A stretch of DNA of 32,507 bases from a virus: the IMG/VR virus record IMGVR_UViG_3300025853_010175, positions 1 through 32,507 of that record; one strand, 5' to 3'. Below are positions 18,864 through 29,491 of this stretch, one piece after another (the first letter of the stretch is position 1; every line of letters begins with the position of its first letter). The notes beneath the pieces are model-generated. The model was not told the DNA's origin and did no database searches. It was given only the letters and a program-made list of their open reading frames with translations. The position numbers and the translations under genes are program-made.

Positions 18864-19985
18864 TTATATTACGTAAAATTGTCTTGGAAATGCACGATAC
18901 TGGAGTGATTTATTTAATTGTTCAGCAACGTTTGCTTCTCTTTCCATCATTTTATCAGGTCTTAACCTTTCTAATCTGGCCATTAACTCTTCGGTTAATT
19001 TTGATTTTTCATCTTTTGATTCTGTAAGTAATGAGTCATATTCTAATGTTAATTCAGAATCGGGTGTTTTTAGATTACCACTAAATTTACCTCTAACTCT
19101 ACCTAAAGTTTCCTTTACATATGCAGTAAACCATCTACGTACCCATGTTTGTGCAGGGCTGTTTAATTCATCCCATGCCATTTCATCTATTGGGATATCT
19201 GACGGTAACTTTACCACGTCAGGGTTTGCGGCTAAACAAGCATCTCTATCTTCAGTATCGTAATACCAATACCATACACGGTATTGATTAAACTGAATAT
19301 TACCAAAATCAAATTTACCACCAGGTACGTTCATTAAGTGAACCGCCTTTTTACCGTCAGGTAATGCTGTAACTCTGTATGTTAATTCACCTGAAATAAT
19401 TCTTCTCTTGATGTTGATGTCTTGCATTCTTAACAAGATATCAAAGGCAGGTGTAATAAAATAATTACCCATAGTTCCCATTTGTGAGAAACCAGCTGCA
19501 CCACCTAAACCAATACCTCCAAATCCTCCAAATCCACCCATAAATGGGTCAAAGAATGCGGCATCTAACTCAGACCTTGAAAACCATAAAAGTTCGTTTA
19601 ACTCACGTCCTGCGGGTATTTCATATATTTGTTGGTTAGGTACTAAATCAATATAATCTTTTTTAAGAACCCAATCACCACCCGCCTGTAATCCAACAAT
19701 CTTAGAGTATGCGTAAGTATATTGAGTTTCCCAGTCTAAAGAGCGAGTTGTAAATGCTCTTGTTAAAGATTGTTCATCTAGGTTAAGTCCGTATAAAGAT
19801 GTCCACTGATTTTCAATTAACCAATCATTGACATATTGTGCATAATCTTGAATTGATAATTCCAATAAAGAATCCATCATTTCGTCTTCAATTTCTATAC
19901 TACGAATAGGTGCACCTAATAAGTGTCTAATTCTTGTATATAATTTACTTCTTTGTGGTTCAGTTATTAATGTAGTATTAGCCAT
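18864..19985 (-). CDS. Putative neck/head-completion protein (gp13-like)
   Basis: The protein has 373 residues without signal or membrane segment. Residues 1-140 contain SKLYTRIRHLLGAP and LVPNQQIYEIPAGRELNEL; 150-166 is a Gly/Phe-rich loop (GGFGGFGGIGLGGAAGF). The C-terminal part WVRRWFTAYVKETLGRVRG, LTLEYDSLLTESKDE and MMEREANVAEQLNKSL is highly charged and helical. This pattern is familiar from T4-like environmental phages in which the protein is annotated as neck or head-completion protein; I cannot confirm homology to T4 gp13 by eye. It starts 20 bp after a TATTTATAAAATAAAAG motif, the same late-type signal as the tail genes, which supports a virion role. Confidence 0.45.
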   Translation of the reverse strand: MANTTLITEPQRSKLYTRIRHLLGAPIRSIEIEDEMMDSLLELSIQDYAQYVNDWLIENQWTSLYGLNLDEQSLTRAFTTRSLDWETQYTYAYSKIVGLQAGGDWVLKKDYIDLVPNQQIYEIPAGRELNELLWFSRSELDAAFFDPFMGGFGGFGGIGLGGAAGFSQMGTMGNYFITPAFDILLRMQDINIKRRIISGELTYRVTALPDGKKAVHLMNVPGGKFDFGNIQFNQYRVWYWYYDTEDRDACLAANPDVVKLPSDIPIDEMAWDELNSPAQTWVRRWFTAYVKETLGRVRGKFSGNLKTPDSELTLEYDSLLTESKDEKSKLTEELMARLERLRPDKMMEREANVAEQLNKSLQYRAFPRQFYVI

Positions 19986-20024: not shown

Positions 20025-21587
20025 TTAATTGATTCTATCGTCTGAGTTAAAAACATATCTACCATCAATGATTTCTGTGTTGTTATTAAACACTATTGTA
20101 CCATCTCTATCATTATGAAAGACTAAGTAATCAACAGTATATGGTTTCACATTACCACTACCATATACAGTTATTTTACCATCTTCTTCTTCAATTTTAT
20201 TGAAAGGTTTTATTTGCATTGTTTTATCACCCTCAGGTGTTACAACATATGCGTCAACACCACCTAACATATCATCAACACCACCAAGCTCTCCTACTTT
20301 AAAAACTTCTTTGGTGTTAAAAATCTTTTTTAAGTTTATAACGGCATTAAGTTCTCTTTTATCACCAAACTTATTTGACCTATCTAATCCACTCATTACT
20401 GTTTGAAAGGTGCTTGATTCAGTGTTGAATATTCTGTATCGAAGTTCGGTCATATATCTAACTAACCTATCCGTTTCATCGAGTTGTTGTTTATTATCTA
20501 ACCCAACAAGATTTATAGGATTTATACCAACTTTTTTTAGGTATTGGTTTATATCGTTTACTAAAGTACAGAACGCAGTGTAATTTGTGTTTAACTTGTT
20601 AATTATTGAACGACCTGATTGTTCAAAGTCATAAACACCTGACATTTCGCCTTTCTTATATTCATCTTTTTCAAACCAATATTCTGAAAATACTTCTTTA
20701 AGAATATCCATAATAGCATACATGAATTTCTTCTTAACTTGTGGGTTACGATTGAATATCATTCTATATGTGTTCACCTGTTTTCTATTACATCCTGCAG
20801 ATACACCCTCATTAATAACTTCTTTAATAAACTTACCTTCGTTAATTTTGTCTTTTGTTCTTCCTAAAAATAATTTGTTTACAAACGGCCAATTAATTAC
20901 CTTCCAAAAGTTTTCAATATATTCATCTCTTTTGTTTCTGTATTTTAAATAATAAGCGTGTTCCCATAAATCAAGACCGAGAATTGGATATCCACCAAAT
21001 TTTATGGTATTCATCAATGGATTATCCTGATTTGATGTGGTCATAATTTTTAGTTTATCACTGTTTGTAATAACTAACCATACCCATCCTGAACCAAATT
21101 TTGATTTTGCTTTTTTCTCAAACTCTTTTTTAAAGTTATCGTAAGAACCAAAATCTTCTTTGATTTTTCTGAGTATTGGACCGTAAACCCTTGTACTTTT
21201 AGGTGTTAACATTTTCCAAAAAAGTGCATGGTTAAATGCACCACCTGCATTGTTTCTAATATTGTTATTGAATCTACTGATTCCTTTTACAATTTGTTCC
21301 AAGTCCAAATCGGACCCTTTTCTTTTCTGAATTGCCTTATTCAGTTTGTCTACATACCCTTTGTAATGTTTGTTATAGTGAACATACATCGTTTCTTTGT
21401 CGATGAATGATTCTAAGGCAGAGTAAGAGTATGGTAGTCTATCTATACCAATTTTCTTCATTTCTAATAAAATTTCTTTGCGTGATTTTTCAGTTGTAGA
21501 TTCTTCAATAGGTTTATTATCTACAACTTCGTTTTTGATTTGTTCTTCGAGTTCTTTGGCTCTTTCTTTTAGTTTTCTAAAACTCAT
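20025..21587 (-). CDS. Mn/Fe superoxide dismutase domain fused to a possible PD-(D/E)XK nuclease domain
   Basis: The protein has 520 residues. Residues 1-35 are a charged helix. Residues 45-240 form a complete iron/manganese superoxide dismutase: ligands His70 (MYVHYNKHY), His120 (AFNHALFW), Asp206 and His210 (LDLWEHAYYLKYRN), with Tyr78 and His74 at the active-site gate. Gln187 (TSNQDNPL) and the Gly115-Gly116 (NNAGGAFNH) arrangement are those of manganese SODs. Residues 250-400 are helical and unrecognised. Residues 408-505 resemble a PD-(D/E)XK nuclease core: RELNAVINL (Glu412), MLGGVDAYVV (Asp445) and MQIKPF (Gln458-x-Lys460). It lies alone between the helicase and a neck-like gene, 20 bp after a TATTTATAGTAAAAA motif. 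The SOD call is firm; the nuclease call is a hypothesis. Confidence 0.8.
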   Translation of the reverse strand: MSFRKLKERAKELEEQIKNEVVDNKPIEESTTEKSRKEILLEMKKIGIDRLPYSYSALESFIDKETMYVHYNKHYKGYVDKLNKAIQKRKGSDLDLEQIVKGISRFNNNIRNNAGGAFNHALFWKMLTPKSTRVYGPILRKIKEDFGSYDNFKKEFEKKAKSKFGSGWVWLVITNSDKLKIMTTSNQDNPLMNTIKFGGYPILGLDLWEHAYYLKYRNKRDEYIENFWKVINWPFVNKLFLGRTKDKINEGKFIKEVINEGVSAGCNRKQVNTYRMIFNRNPQVKKKFMYAIMDILKEVFSEYWFEKDEYKKGEMSGVYDFEQSGRSIINKLNTNYTAFCTLVNDINQYLKKVGINPINLVGLDNKQQLDETDRLVRYMTELRYRIFNTESSTFQTVMSGLDRSNKFGDKRELNAVINLKKIFNTKEVFKVGELGGVDDMLGGVDAYVVTPEGDKTMQIKPFNKIEEEDGKITVYGSGNVKPYTVDYLVFHNDRDGTIVFNNNTEIIDGRYVFNSDDRIN

Positions 21588-21590
21588 TTA

Positions 21591-21607
21591 GGTTTTTACT
21601 ATAAATA
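21591..21607 (-). promoter_or_regulatory. Late-type motif for the SOD fusion gene
   Basis: Minus strand TATTTATAGTAAAAACC, 20 bp from its first T to ATG 21587. Both flanking genes are minus-strand; shares 15 bases with the motif at 11486-11500. Confidence 0.45.
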
Positions 21608-21626: not shown

Positions 21627-23390
21627 TTAGTATCTTCGTTGTGAAATTTCGTTAAGGATTTCTTCTAATGTATCACCCTTACCTTCGTTATCACCCATAA
21701 CTGTTTCAAATATATTTTTCTTTTTAGATAATATATCATAGATAACACCTTCGATAGTGTTTTCAAATATTGGGTAAAAAATAGATACATTGAATTTTTG
21801 ACCATATCTATAAGCTCTGTCTTCAGCTTGTGCGTGGTCAGATGGAACGAAAGATAAATCGTTCATAATAACGGCTTCAGCCTCAGTTAAGGTAATACCT
21901 ACACCTGCGGCTTTTAAGTTTCCTACGAATACTTTTATTTTTTCATTTTCTTGAAATTGGTCAACCGCATGTTGACGAGCCGGTTTTGACATACTACCGT
22001 CTAACATCACTGCGGATTTACCAAAGTGGTCTTTTATCAAATTTAAAGTATTTGTGAAGTTTGTGAAAATGATTACTTTCTTACCTTGCTCAATGATATT
22101 TTCGGCAATTTCACATGTTTCTTTTACTTTATTTTCGGCTATGACTTGTCTTACTTTCATTAACTTTGAAAATTGTACAGTTAATGATGATGACTCGTCT
22201 GATTGTTCATACCAATCATAATACTCACCCATTAATTGTTCATAATCACGAGATTTTAATCTCATATAAACAGGGGTGATAATTTTTTCAGGTAAATCTA
22301 AAATGTCTTGTTTCAATCTTCTTAATACGTGTGTTTTAGTTCGGTCTCTCAATTCTTCAAGATTGTCGGCACCTTGAACATTCCAAACTTTTCTTTTACC
22401 TACACTAAACTGATATCCGTTACAATACCTTTTTACATATGCCATCCAATTATATGCTACGGGACTATCAACAAGATTAAGAAGATTATAATAATTTATT
22501 GGTCGGGAAGTCATTGGAGTACCTGTTAACAACCAAACCTTACCAACTTTTTTACAAATATCATTTGCAATTTTTGTCCTTTGAGCTTGTGCATTTTGAA
22601 TGTAATGGGCTTCATCTATAATAATCAAATCAAACCCTTCATTTAATATTGTTGATTCTTCAGGATATTTTGGGTCATGAAAGTTTTTTAAAATATCGTA
22701 ATTAATAATCACATAATCGGCACTTTCCCAATTCTTACCTTCAATAATTGAAATAGATTTATCAGTATAATTCTGAATTTCTCTCATCCAATTTATCTTT
22801 AGAGATGCCGGACAAATGATTAATACTCTTTCTGCTCCTGTTTCTAATGTTCCAATAACTGTTGATGTGGTTTTACCCAATCCCATATCATCGGCAAGAA
22901 TATATTTCTCATTACCAACTAACTTTTCTATGGCTTCTTTTTGGTGAGACAATGGAGGTCGATGAGAATATTTTTCATAATCTATTTCAACATTATGTTC
23001 TTTCTTACCAACAATCGCGGCTTTAGGTAACCAAAAGTGATGAAGTTCTTCAGACTCAAACAACTTACCCCATATATGAAAAGCTTTATCTTTTTCGACT
23101 AAAAGTTTTTCAATATAGATTTTTTCAGGTTCCTTTGTAAGGAGTTTATCTTCCATCATTCTTTTAGAAAAATAAGAATCTAATGGGACCCACCTTCTTG
23201 CAATTTTGGGAACAACATCCTTATAATTGTTTATATAGTCGGCTTGAGCTCGAGTTATCTTAAAATTTTTTGAATTCTCGTAATTTTTTTTGATTGCAAG
23301 AATATAGTTATTAAAACCTTCGTAGTTCTCAAGAACACGTTGAGCTTTAACTTCAGGAATCTTTGAAAGTGTTTCTGAGTTTTCTTGCAT
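21627..23390 (-). CDS. SNF2-family DNA translocase/helicase (SMARCAL1-like)
   Basis: ATG 23390 (MQENSETLSK) is preferred; an in-frame ATG at 23435 adds a hydrophobic run (MINICFLIIFKFIYI) and would overlap the opposite gene's leader. The 587 residues hold all superfamily 2 motifs: Q-like LSHQKEAIEKL (147-157), Walker A DDMGLGKTTS (167-176), DEAH (259-262), LLTGTPMTS (287-295), then in the second lobe VIIFTNF, GVGITLTEAEAV and the arginine-finger motif QAEDRAYRYGQ. The spacing and RAYRYGQ match SNF2 proteins, closest in style to the SMARCAL1/HARP branch that anneals and remodels forks. It may do the job of T4 UvsW, whose family is different. It is divergent from the 23439 gene with 48 bp between starts. 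Confidence 0.88.
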   Translation of the reverse strand: MQENSETLSKIPEVKAQRVLENYEGFNNYILAIKKNYENSKNFKITRAQADYINNYKDVVPKIARRWVPLDSYFSKRMMEDKLLTKEPEKIYIEKLLVEKDKAFHIWGKLFESEELHHFWLPKAAIVGKKEHNVEIDYEKYSHRPPLSHQKEAIEKLVGNEKYILADDMGLGKTTSTVIGTLETGAERVLIICPASLKINWMREIQNYTDKSISIIEGKNWESADYVIINYDILKNFHDPKYPEESTILNEGFDLIIIDEAHYIQNAQAQRTKIANDICKKVGKVWLLTGTPMTSRPINYYNLLNLVDSPVAYNWMAYVKRYCNGYQFSVGKRKVWNVQGADNLEELRDRTKTHVLRRLKQDILDLPEKIITPVYMRLKSRDYEQLMGEYYDWYEQSDESSSLTVQFSKLMKVRQVIAENKVKETCEIAENIIEQGKKVIIFTNFTNTLNLIKDHFGKSAVMLDGSMSKPARQHAVDQFQENEKIKVFVGNLKAAGVGITLTEAEAVIMNDLSFVPSDHAQAEDRAYRYGQKFNVSIFYPIFENTIEGVIYDILSKKKNIFETVMGDNEGKGDTLEEILNEISQRRY

Positions 23391-23425
23391 AATGTAAATA
23401 AATTTAAATATAATCAAAAAACAAA

Positions 23426-23438
23426 TATTTATCAATAT
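23426..23438 (+). promoter_or_regulatory. Late-type motif for the 23439 gene
   Basis: TATTTATCAATAT directly before ATG 23439. The reverse reading GATAAATA also lies about 36 bp upstream of the helicase ATG (23390), so its direction is not decided here. Confidence 0.3.
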
Positions 23439-28496: not shown

Positions 28497-28640
28497 ATGG
28501 AATTTAAAAAGAAAAACTTAAACGAAGCGTTAGAAATCAAAAGTACTGGTAAGAAGACGTTTTCTGAAAAACCACAAAACATTGTTGTATCAGAAGAACA
28601 ATTAGAAAGATTAATTACTAAAGTTTCTAAAGAGAAGTAA
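28497..28640 (+). CDS. 47-residue hypothetical protein coupled to the HAD-like gene
   Basis: The ATG at 28497 opens a 47-residue frame: MEFKKKNLNEALEIKSTGKK, then TFSEKPQNIVVSEEQLERLI and TKVSKEK. It is lysine- and glutamate-rich, with a likely C-terminal helix (SEEQLERLITKV). It begins 19 bp after the terminator and its TAA overlaps the next ATG (TAATG), which argues for a real, translationally coupled gene. The 'N-I-V-V-S-E-E-Q-L-E-R-L-I' phrase recurs in small phage proteins of unknown function. No role can be given. Confidence 0.6.
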   Translation: MEFKKKNLNEALEIKSTGKKTFSEKPQNIVVSEEQLERLITKVSKEK

Positions 28641-29491
28641 TGAATATACGTAGAATAATAAAGGAATACGCTGAAGAGAAACAATTAAGAGAGGGTTTTG
28701 ATGAGGCGGGTGAACCAGATTTAAAGTATTATGCTTTTGACTGGGATGATAATATTGTGACAATGCCAACACAAATCGTTTTACAAGATAATAATGGTAA
28801 TGAGGTTGGTATGAGTACAGAAGATTTTGCTGAATATAGAGAACAGATAGGTAAAGAACCTTTTGAATATAAGAATAAGAAGATTGTTGGATATGCTGGT
28901 GACCCTTACCGTAATTTTGGTGTAAAGGGTGACAAAGCCTTTATTGTCGATGCTATGATGGCAAAAACGGGTCCTTCATGGAACGATTTTGTTGAAGCAA
29001 TAAATGGGGGGTCGATTTTTTCGATAATCACTGCGAGGGGACACCACCCTGATACTCTTCGTGAGGCGGTTTATAATATGATTGTAACCGACCATAATGG
29101 TATTAGTAAAGAAGAGTTATTAAGTAACTTAAAAAGATATCGTGAATATTTTGATGAAACAAAAATGAGTGACAAAGAGATGATTGACTTCTATTTGGAC
29201 TTATCCAAGTTTCATCCTGTGACATATGGTGAGGGTAGTGCTGCTAATCCTGAAGAAGGAAAGATTGTAGCATTAAGAAACTTCCTTTCGTATGTTAAGA
29301 ATATGGCACAAGAGTTGGGGGAGAAGGCATACTTTAAAAACGATGTTAAGAACAATTTTGTTCCTAATATAGGATTTTCTGATGATGATGCTAGAAATAT
29401 AGAAAAGATTAAAGATTTTCTGGATGCAGAAGATAAAGATAAACTAGTTAAGACTTATTTAACAAAAGGAGGAGAAAAACAAGAAGTTTAA
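28640..29491 (+). CDS. HAD-like hydrolase in the tail module
   Basis: The protein has 283 residues. HAD motifs are visible: YYAFDWDDNIV (30-40; Asp34 and Asp36), FSIITARGHHPDT (127-139; Thr131 as motif II) and IGFSDDDARNI (244-254; Asp248-Asp250 as motif IV). A 90-residue insert between motifs I and II probably forms a cap. The first 20 residues (MNIRRIIKEYAEEKQLREGF) are a basic amphipathic helix ending before an IKE-type site like those cut by prohead proteases. Between sheath and tube genes such an enzyme is unexpected; it may be packaged in the virion or simply share late transcription. Substrate unknown. Start overlaps the upstream stop by 1 bp. Confidence 0.65.
   Translation: MNIRRIIKEYAEEKQLREGFDEAGEPDLKYYAFDWDDNIVTMPTQIVLQDNNGNEVGMSTEDFAEYREQIGKEPFEYKNKKIVGYAGDPYRNFGVKGDKAFIVDAMMAKTGPSWNDFVEAINGGSIFSIITARGHHPDTLREAVYNMIVTDHNGISKEELLSNLKRYREYFDETKMSDKEMIDFYLDLSKFHPVTYGEGSAANPEEGKIVALRNFLSYVKNMAQELGEKAYFKNDVKNNFVPNIGFSDDDARNIEKIKDFLDAEDKDKLVKTYLTKGGEKQEV

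Follow-up and report, generated by a model that had tools for sequence, protein, structure and literature searches.

A phage gene that joins a superoxide dismutase (SOD) to a second domain raises the question whether the two halves work as one enzyme or are made together to be separated later. The gene studied here lies in the window, i.e. the whole stretch of 32,507 nucleotides analysed from the virus record IMGVR_UViG_3300025853_010175, where positions 20025-21587 of the minus strand form an ORF of 520 amino acids with an ATG start. An earlier note on this DNA had proposed an active Mn-type SOD coupled on one chain to a possible PD-(D/E)XK nuclease, and had guessed that the protein may be packaged. 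All residues on which this proposal was built (His70, Tyr78, His120, Gln187, Asp206, His210, Glu412, Asp445, Gln458 and Lys460) were found in place. The ORF is organized as follows.

20025..21587, minus strand: whole ORF, 520 aa, with N-terminal extension, Mn-type SOD, linker and PD-(D/E)XK-like domain
21456..21587, minus strand: N-terminal extension of variable sequence (residues 1-44), with a helix predicted at 2-20; candidate capsid-targeting propeptide
21462..21470, minus strand: L-L-E, residues 40-42, directly ahead of the SOD; Glu at this place in 28/39 homologues
20868..21455, minus strand: Fe/Mn superoxide dismutase domain, residues 45-240
20799..20873, minus strand: linker, residues 239-263, of low model confidence and variable apart from two conserved sites
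20838..20846, minus strand: I-N-E (248-250), first conserved (I/L/V)-x-E site; E250 in 39/39
20808..20816, minus strand: I-N-E (258-260), second conserved (I/L/V)-x-E site; E260 in 39/39
20028..20807, minus strand: C-terminal half, residues 261-520, a helical region followed by a PD-(D/E)XK-like core (about 392-520)
20352..20354, minus strand: Glu412, motif I, within a long helix
20253..20255, minus strand: Asp445, motif II, where a strand begins
20208..20216, minus strand: Gln458-x-Lys460, motif III (Q-x-K variant)

Judged by its sequence, the part from residue 45 to 240 is a complete Mn-type superoxide dismutase in which every active-site residue is kept. Both Pfam families of the fold matched above their curated cut-offs (Sod_Fe_C with E=8.9e-41 and 138.5 bits against a cut-off of 20.9, Sod_Fe_N with E=1.2e-23 and 83.8 bits against 27). 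The closest solved relative is a Sphingobacterium MnSOD (E=3e-60), and the fold match to 6gsc reached Z 26.9 with an rmsd of 2.0 A over 203 aligned residues. Conservation was assessed in an alignment of 39 non-redundant fusions. The four metal ligands H70, H120, D206 and H210 as well as Y78 and the Mn-type Q187 were identical in 39/39, in line with the intact SOD half that the earlier note had held. Likeness to the Mn type of the Fe/Mn SOD family (PF00081/PF02777) thus covers fold, metal ligands, gateway Tyr, Mn-type Gln and the interface Glu and Tyr. The phage-encoded protein differs from this family in its N-terminal extension and its C-terminal nuclease-like domain. In a tree of the SOD part all fusion types grouped with the SOD of Fluviicola (Bacteroidota) as the nearest sampled cellular branch, a placement that is weakly supported and drawn from few cellular sequences.

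Fe/Mn SODs form dimers or tetramers, and PD-(D/E)XK enzymes often work as dimers. Glu209 and Tyr213, which in the Fe/Mn SOD family lie at the dimer interface, were invariant as well, as would be expected if the role of the SOD fold were to dimerise the nuclease, with any SOD activity being incidental. We regard this as highly improbable. The metal ligands, Tyr78 and Gln187, which are unneeded for dimerisation alone, are also invariant, and the linker sites described below suggest that the two halves become separated.

Residues 241-520 had no family match in Pfam, PHROGs or NCBIfam. A structure prediction with a fold search had been proposed for the C-terminal segment, and the model of residues 261-520, built from a 16-row alignment (mean pLDDT 80.7), returned PD-(D/E)XK proteins as top matches. 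In the Foldseek comparison with the PDB these were I-Ssp6803I and Hjc resolvases. Structural alignment gave Z scores of 7.2 for Hjc, 6.8 for SPARDA DREN and 6.5 for I-Ssp6803I, followed by NhoI (6.4), Eco15I (6.3), HhaI (6.0) and DpnI (5.0), so that nearly all leading matches are PD-(D/E)XK proteins. A Z score of about 7 is moderate and could be due to chance in a single row, but leading matches that belong to one superfamily, combined with motif residues that never vary, make the predicted fold convincing. The helix and the strands of the PD-(D/E)XK core were predicted. As the canonical crossing helix, i.e. the second core helix between strands 3 and 4, is absent from the model, the core is not fully canonical.

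E412, D445, Q458, K460 and P461 were identical in 39/39 fusions. The homologues fall into three C-terminal types, namely that of the window, the type of locus L013 (with 33% identity to the window) and the type of loci L050 and L051 (20-23%), and these residues are kept across all three. Since they are invariant in 39 non-redundant homologues, including types that are only 20-33% identical, the order E / G-x-D / Q-x-K is not a chance arrangement. The earlier assignment to the PD-(D/E)XK superfamily is hence supported by a predicted fold and by an E..D..QxK site in every homologue. The collection of homologues, likewise proposed in the earlier note, showed a conserved fusion in which metal ligands and E412/D445/K460 are kept in 39/39. 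The SOD fusions at loci L050 (5959-8577) and L051 (5944-8580) are about 875 aa long and have an additional region at the C-terminus. This region had no Pfam match, carries an E..D..S-I-K pattern of its own, and is possibly a second nuclease-like domain.

Motif III has Gln for the usual Glu or Asp and the fold match is moderate. Both points would fit a protein in which only the SOD is catalytic, whereas the nuclease-fold domain is a DNA-binding or structural module that keeps the SOD near DNA. We consider such a module improbable in view of the invariance of E412, D445, Q458 and K460 down to 20-33% identity. Moreover, Q-x-K is the active-site form of SPARDA DREN, with D41, Q60 and K62 as catalytic residues (PMC12205087). 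Q-x-K nucleases of the superfamily, i.e. SPARDA DREN and, by fold, I-Ssp6803I, share with our protein the helix Glu, the strand Asp and the strand Q-x-K in the same order. Identity to them is only 11-20%, and here an additional N-terminal helical region and a fused SOD are found, and the crossing helix is not predicted.

In scans of viral contigs, 62 loci matched the whole protein and 37 the C-terminal part. Furthermore, the best 80 of 379 relatives from a C-terminal profile scan of viral contigs were examined. In 79 of these 80 loci the SOD fusion was unbroken. The sole exception (L202) is a frameshifted copy with the SOD in the upstream frame, on a contig with other frameshifts. Hence, no stand-alone C-terminal domain was found among the best 80 of 379 profile relatives in viral contigs, nor did two long relatives contain paralogues of this domain. 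The C-terminal half is lacking in the phage homologue L057, which ends after the SOD, and in L059-L062, which have an HExxH metallopeptidase-like domain ahead of the SOD. In these four loci (e.g. L059:2734-3828) I/L-x-E sites lie between the two domains, and the peptidase-like part is without a Pfam match.

Cellular genomes yielded SOD matches only and no SOD-nuclease fusion, and in isolate phages there were SOD-only matches, none covering more than 40% of the protein. The SOD matches in Staphylococcus, Escherichia and Enterococcus phage records (e.g. OR850395.1, OR845917.1, OR846594.1) look like host DNA. The fusion belongs to a widespread, uncultured group of T4-like phages. The best match of the C-terminal model in a viral structure library was A0A6J5L953, a protein of 501 aa from an uncultured Caudovirales phage, which by length and structure match is a fusion of the L013 type. 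Its record name gives the SOD only, with neither the nuclease half nor the cut sites. The fusion thus has already been deposited and, as far as the record name shows, was not recognised. In a literature search outside subscription journals, no account of a phage SOD fused to a nuclease came up.

The main addition to the earlier observation comes from the linker. The SOD domain is the best conserved part (mean pairwise identity 0.68), followed by the two segments of the C-terminal half (0.54 and 0.51), the linker (0.45) and the N-terminal extension (0.31). In the linkers of the 39 fusions E250 and E260 are the sole invariant residues. Positions 248 and 258 are always occupied by I, L or V, and positions 249 and 259 vary. 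The T4 prohead protease gp21 cleaves after L/I-x-E (PMC9026906). These column patterns suggest that the E250 and E260 sites are candidate prohead-protease sites between the two enzymes. The I/L/V-x-E motif occurred 83 times in the 39 linkers as compared to a mean of 25.6 (maximum 38) in shuffled sequences, and 114 times in 37 N-terminal extensions as compared to 54.7 (maximum 73). There was no enrichment in the SOD domain (69 versus a shuffled mean of 71.9). Each of the 37 homologues tested has at least two such sites in its N-terminal extension. Homologues without the C-terminal half (L057, L059-062) show no sites of the linker type behind the SOD.

This motif is short and common by chance, and its proteome-wide frequency is near compositional expectation. 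It does not discriminate at that level, so the argument rests on the conservation of the columns and not on the mere presence of the motif. The first motif position can also be V, and in the linker the residues following the presumed cut include T and V besides A, G and S. The linker could be conserved for a reason other than cleavage. An internal translation start within the linker was ruled out, as there is no conserved Met. The earlier note had coupled both activities on one chain. Since conserved cut-type sites lie in the linker, the two halves are more likely separated than coupled.

Evidence for a matching protease comes from relatives of the window, which itself is a 32.5-kb fragment without the protease and capsid gene region. 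A gp21-family protease (PF03420, Peptidase_S77) was found in 7 of 8 long relatives. Beside it are T4-type portal, scaffold and major capsid genes, which were assigned by gene order and, in the case of the capsid protein, also by alignment. The major capsid protein of the relatives contains LINE|A, aligned exactly with LTE65|A66 of T4 gp23. The gene for a small core-like protein lies between those for portal and protease, and this protein contains nine L/I-x-E sites, where about one is expected. In the long relative G003, bipartite N-termini of the form (I/L)xE...(I/L)xE (e.g. MKKIIRLTESDLTRIIKRVIAEQ) were present in 11 of 252 proteins versus 0.8 expected from shuffles, a rate about ten times that inside proteins. 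From their sequence, we infer that these N-termini are candidate capsid-targeting propeptides. The SOD-nuclease linker (e.g. LNESKVVKSLISE) matches the bipartite pattern in most homologues.

Several small proteins of unknown function in G003 (186668-239204, e.g. 238902-239204) have the common N-terminus M-K-K-x-I-R-L-T-E-S-D-L-x-x-I-I-K-K-V-I-x-E, a candidate capsid-targeting sequence that may mark packaged proteins. G003, the contig of L038, also encodes a protein of 595 aa (227409-229196, minus strand) in which a PPK2 polyphosphate kinase is joined to a phage lysozyme domain, a fusion that recurs in G005 and G006 (contigs of L233 and L232). Its N-terminus is MRNLLTEVSKMKNIMGLTEADK, and its linker contains NINE. 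This odd pair of enzymes may be packaged and cut.

Computation shows the two domains and the invariance of their catalytic residues, the conserved cut-type sites and, in relatives, the protease along with a matching capsid site, while packaging, cleavage, injection and the substrate of the nuclease are inferred. Our preferred reading, to which we assign slightly better than even odds (about 0.52), is that of a late, head-packaged precursor that is cut during head maturation into a free SOD and a free nuclease, which are injected together with the DNA. The N-terminal extension would act as a targeting propeptide directing the chain into the phage head. As the head matures, conserved glutamates (around E42, E250 and E260) would mark the places where the gp21-like protease cuts, and the liberated SOD and nuclease would enter the next host along with the DNA. 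The SOD may then lower superoxide around the DNA, either in the particle or early in infection, and the nuclease may have its DNA substrate in the host or within the head. The predicted packaging, a guess in the earlier note, is now better founded on conserved sites of the prohead-protease type and a gp21-like protease in relatives.

The neighbourhood of the gene is conserved and includes the following features.

18864..19985, minus strand: head-tail adaptor (neck) protein gene, next downstream
21627..23435, minus strand: SNF2-like helicase gene, next upstream
21600..21607, minus strand: TATTTATA (TATTTAT) box upstream of the ATG, recurring before many genes of relatives

The order helicase, SOD-nuclease, neck protein was observed in the window, in two long relatives and in L202, and a helicase also is located upstream of the fusion gene in L179 and L187. 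In coding orientation, the TATTTAT box precedes 62 of 231 genes in G003 and 34 of 150 genes in G001; in the opposite orientation the counts are 21 and 13, respectively. It is similar to the T4 late promoter read as its reverse complement, and it may be a late promoter. Elsewhere in the window (28640-29491) a protein with an aspartate-rich HAD-like motif (YYAFDWDDN) has an N-terminus containing QLREG. The homologues encoded by G001 and G003 likewise vary at the N-terminus, where I/L-x-E occurs ahead of the same motif.

The main rival to packaging is an unpackaged enzyme that acts late inside the cell, in which a nuclease of the Holliday junction resolvase type debranches replicated DNA before the heads are filled and the SOD on the same chain protects this DNA. 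Its position next to the neck protein gene in the late region and the archaeal Hjc resolvases as best PDB fold matches would agree with this role, which moreover appears vacant, as T4 endonuclease VII (PF02945) and RuvC (PF02075) were not found in eight long relatives. These may, however, employ another resolvase. Hjc has E-x-K where Q-x-K is found here, and a common minimal fold does not amount to resolvase function. In addition, this explanation accounts neither for two invariant I/L/V-x-E sites in a variable linker nor for their absence in homologues that terminate with the SOD. We thus rate a resolvase role as rather unlikely, and note that it and the packaged precursor are compatible in part.

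Packaged enzymes are known in T4, as exemplified by Alt and the internal proteins. Like the gp21-processed ejection proteins Alt and IPI-IPIII, the protein described here has L/I-x-E in its N-terminal extension, and the relatives share with T4 a gp21-like protease and a T4-type capsid site. In contrast to these T4 proteins, two enzymes are found per chain with sites between them, and both targeting and presence in the virion are predicted. A late-expressed SOD packaged in the virion has been described for chlorovirus PBCV-1 (PMC7019647). That Cu/Zn enzyme (A245R) belongs to another SOD family and to a eukaryotic virus, and is not fused to a nuclease. No description of one precursor yielding two cargo enzymes was found in the literature searched, which did not extend to subscription journals.

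Taken more broadly, and more tentatively than the proposal for the single gene, the phages of this group may carry capsid-cargo polyproteins, in which unrelated enzymes joined by prohead-protease sites enter the head as a single chain, are cut there and are injected separately. Candidates under this joint and equally tentative reading are SOD with nuclease, SOD with two nuclease-like domains (L050/051), metallopeptidase-like domain with SOD (L059-062), and PPK2 with lysozyme. The cut sites render the question of packaging testable. If the packaged-precursor reading is true, it would explain why the fusion is conserved alongside a variable linker, would predict further injected proteins of these phages, and would point to superoxide as a danger for phage DNA, within the particle or when infection begins. 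If confirmed, such precursors would represent a new kind of viral cargo.
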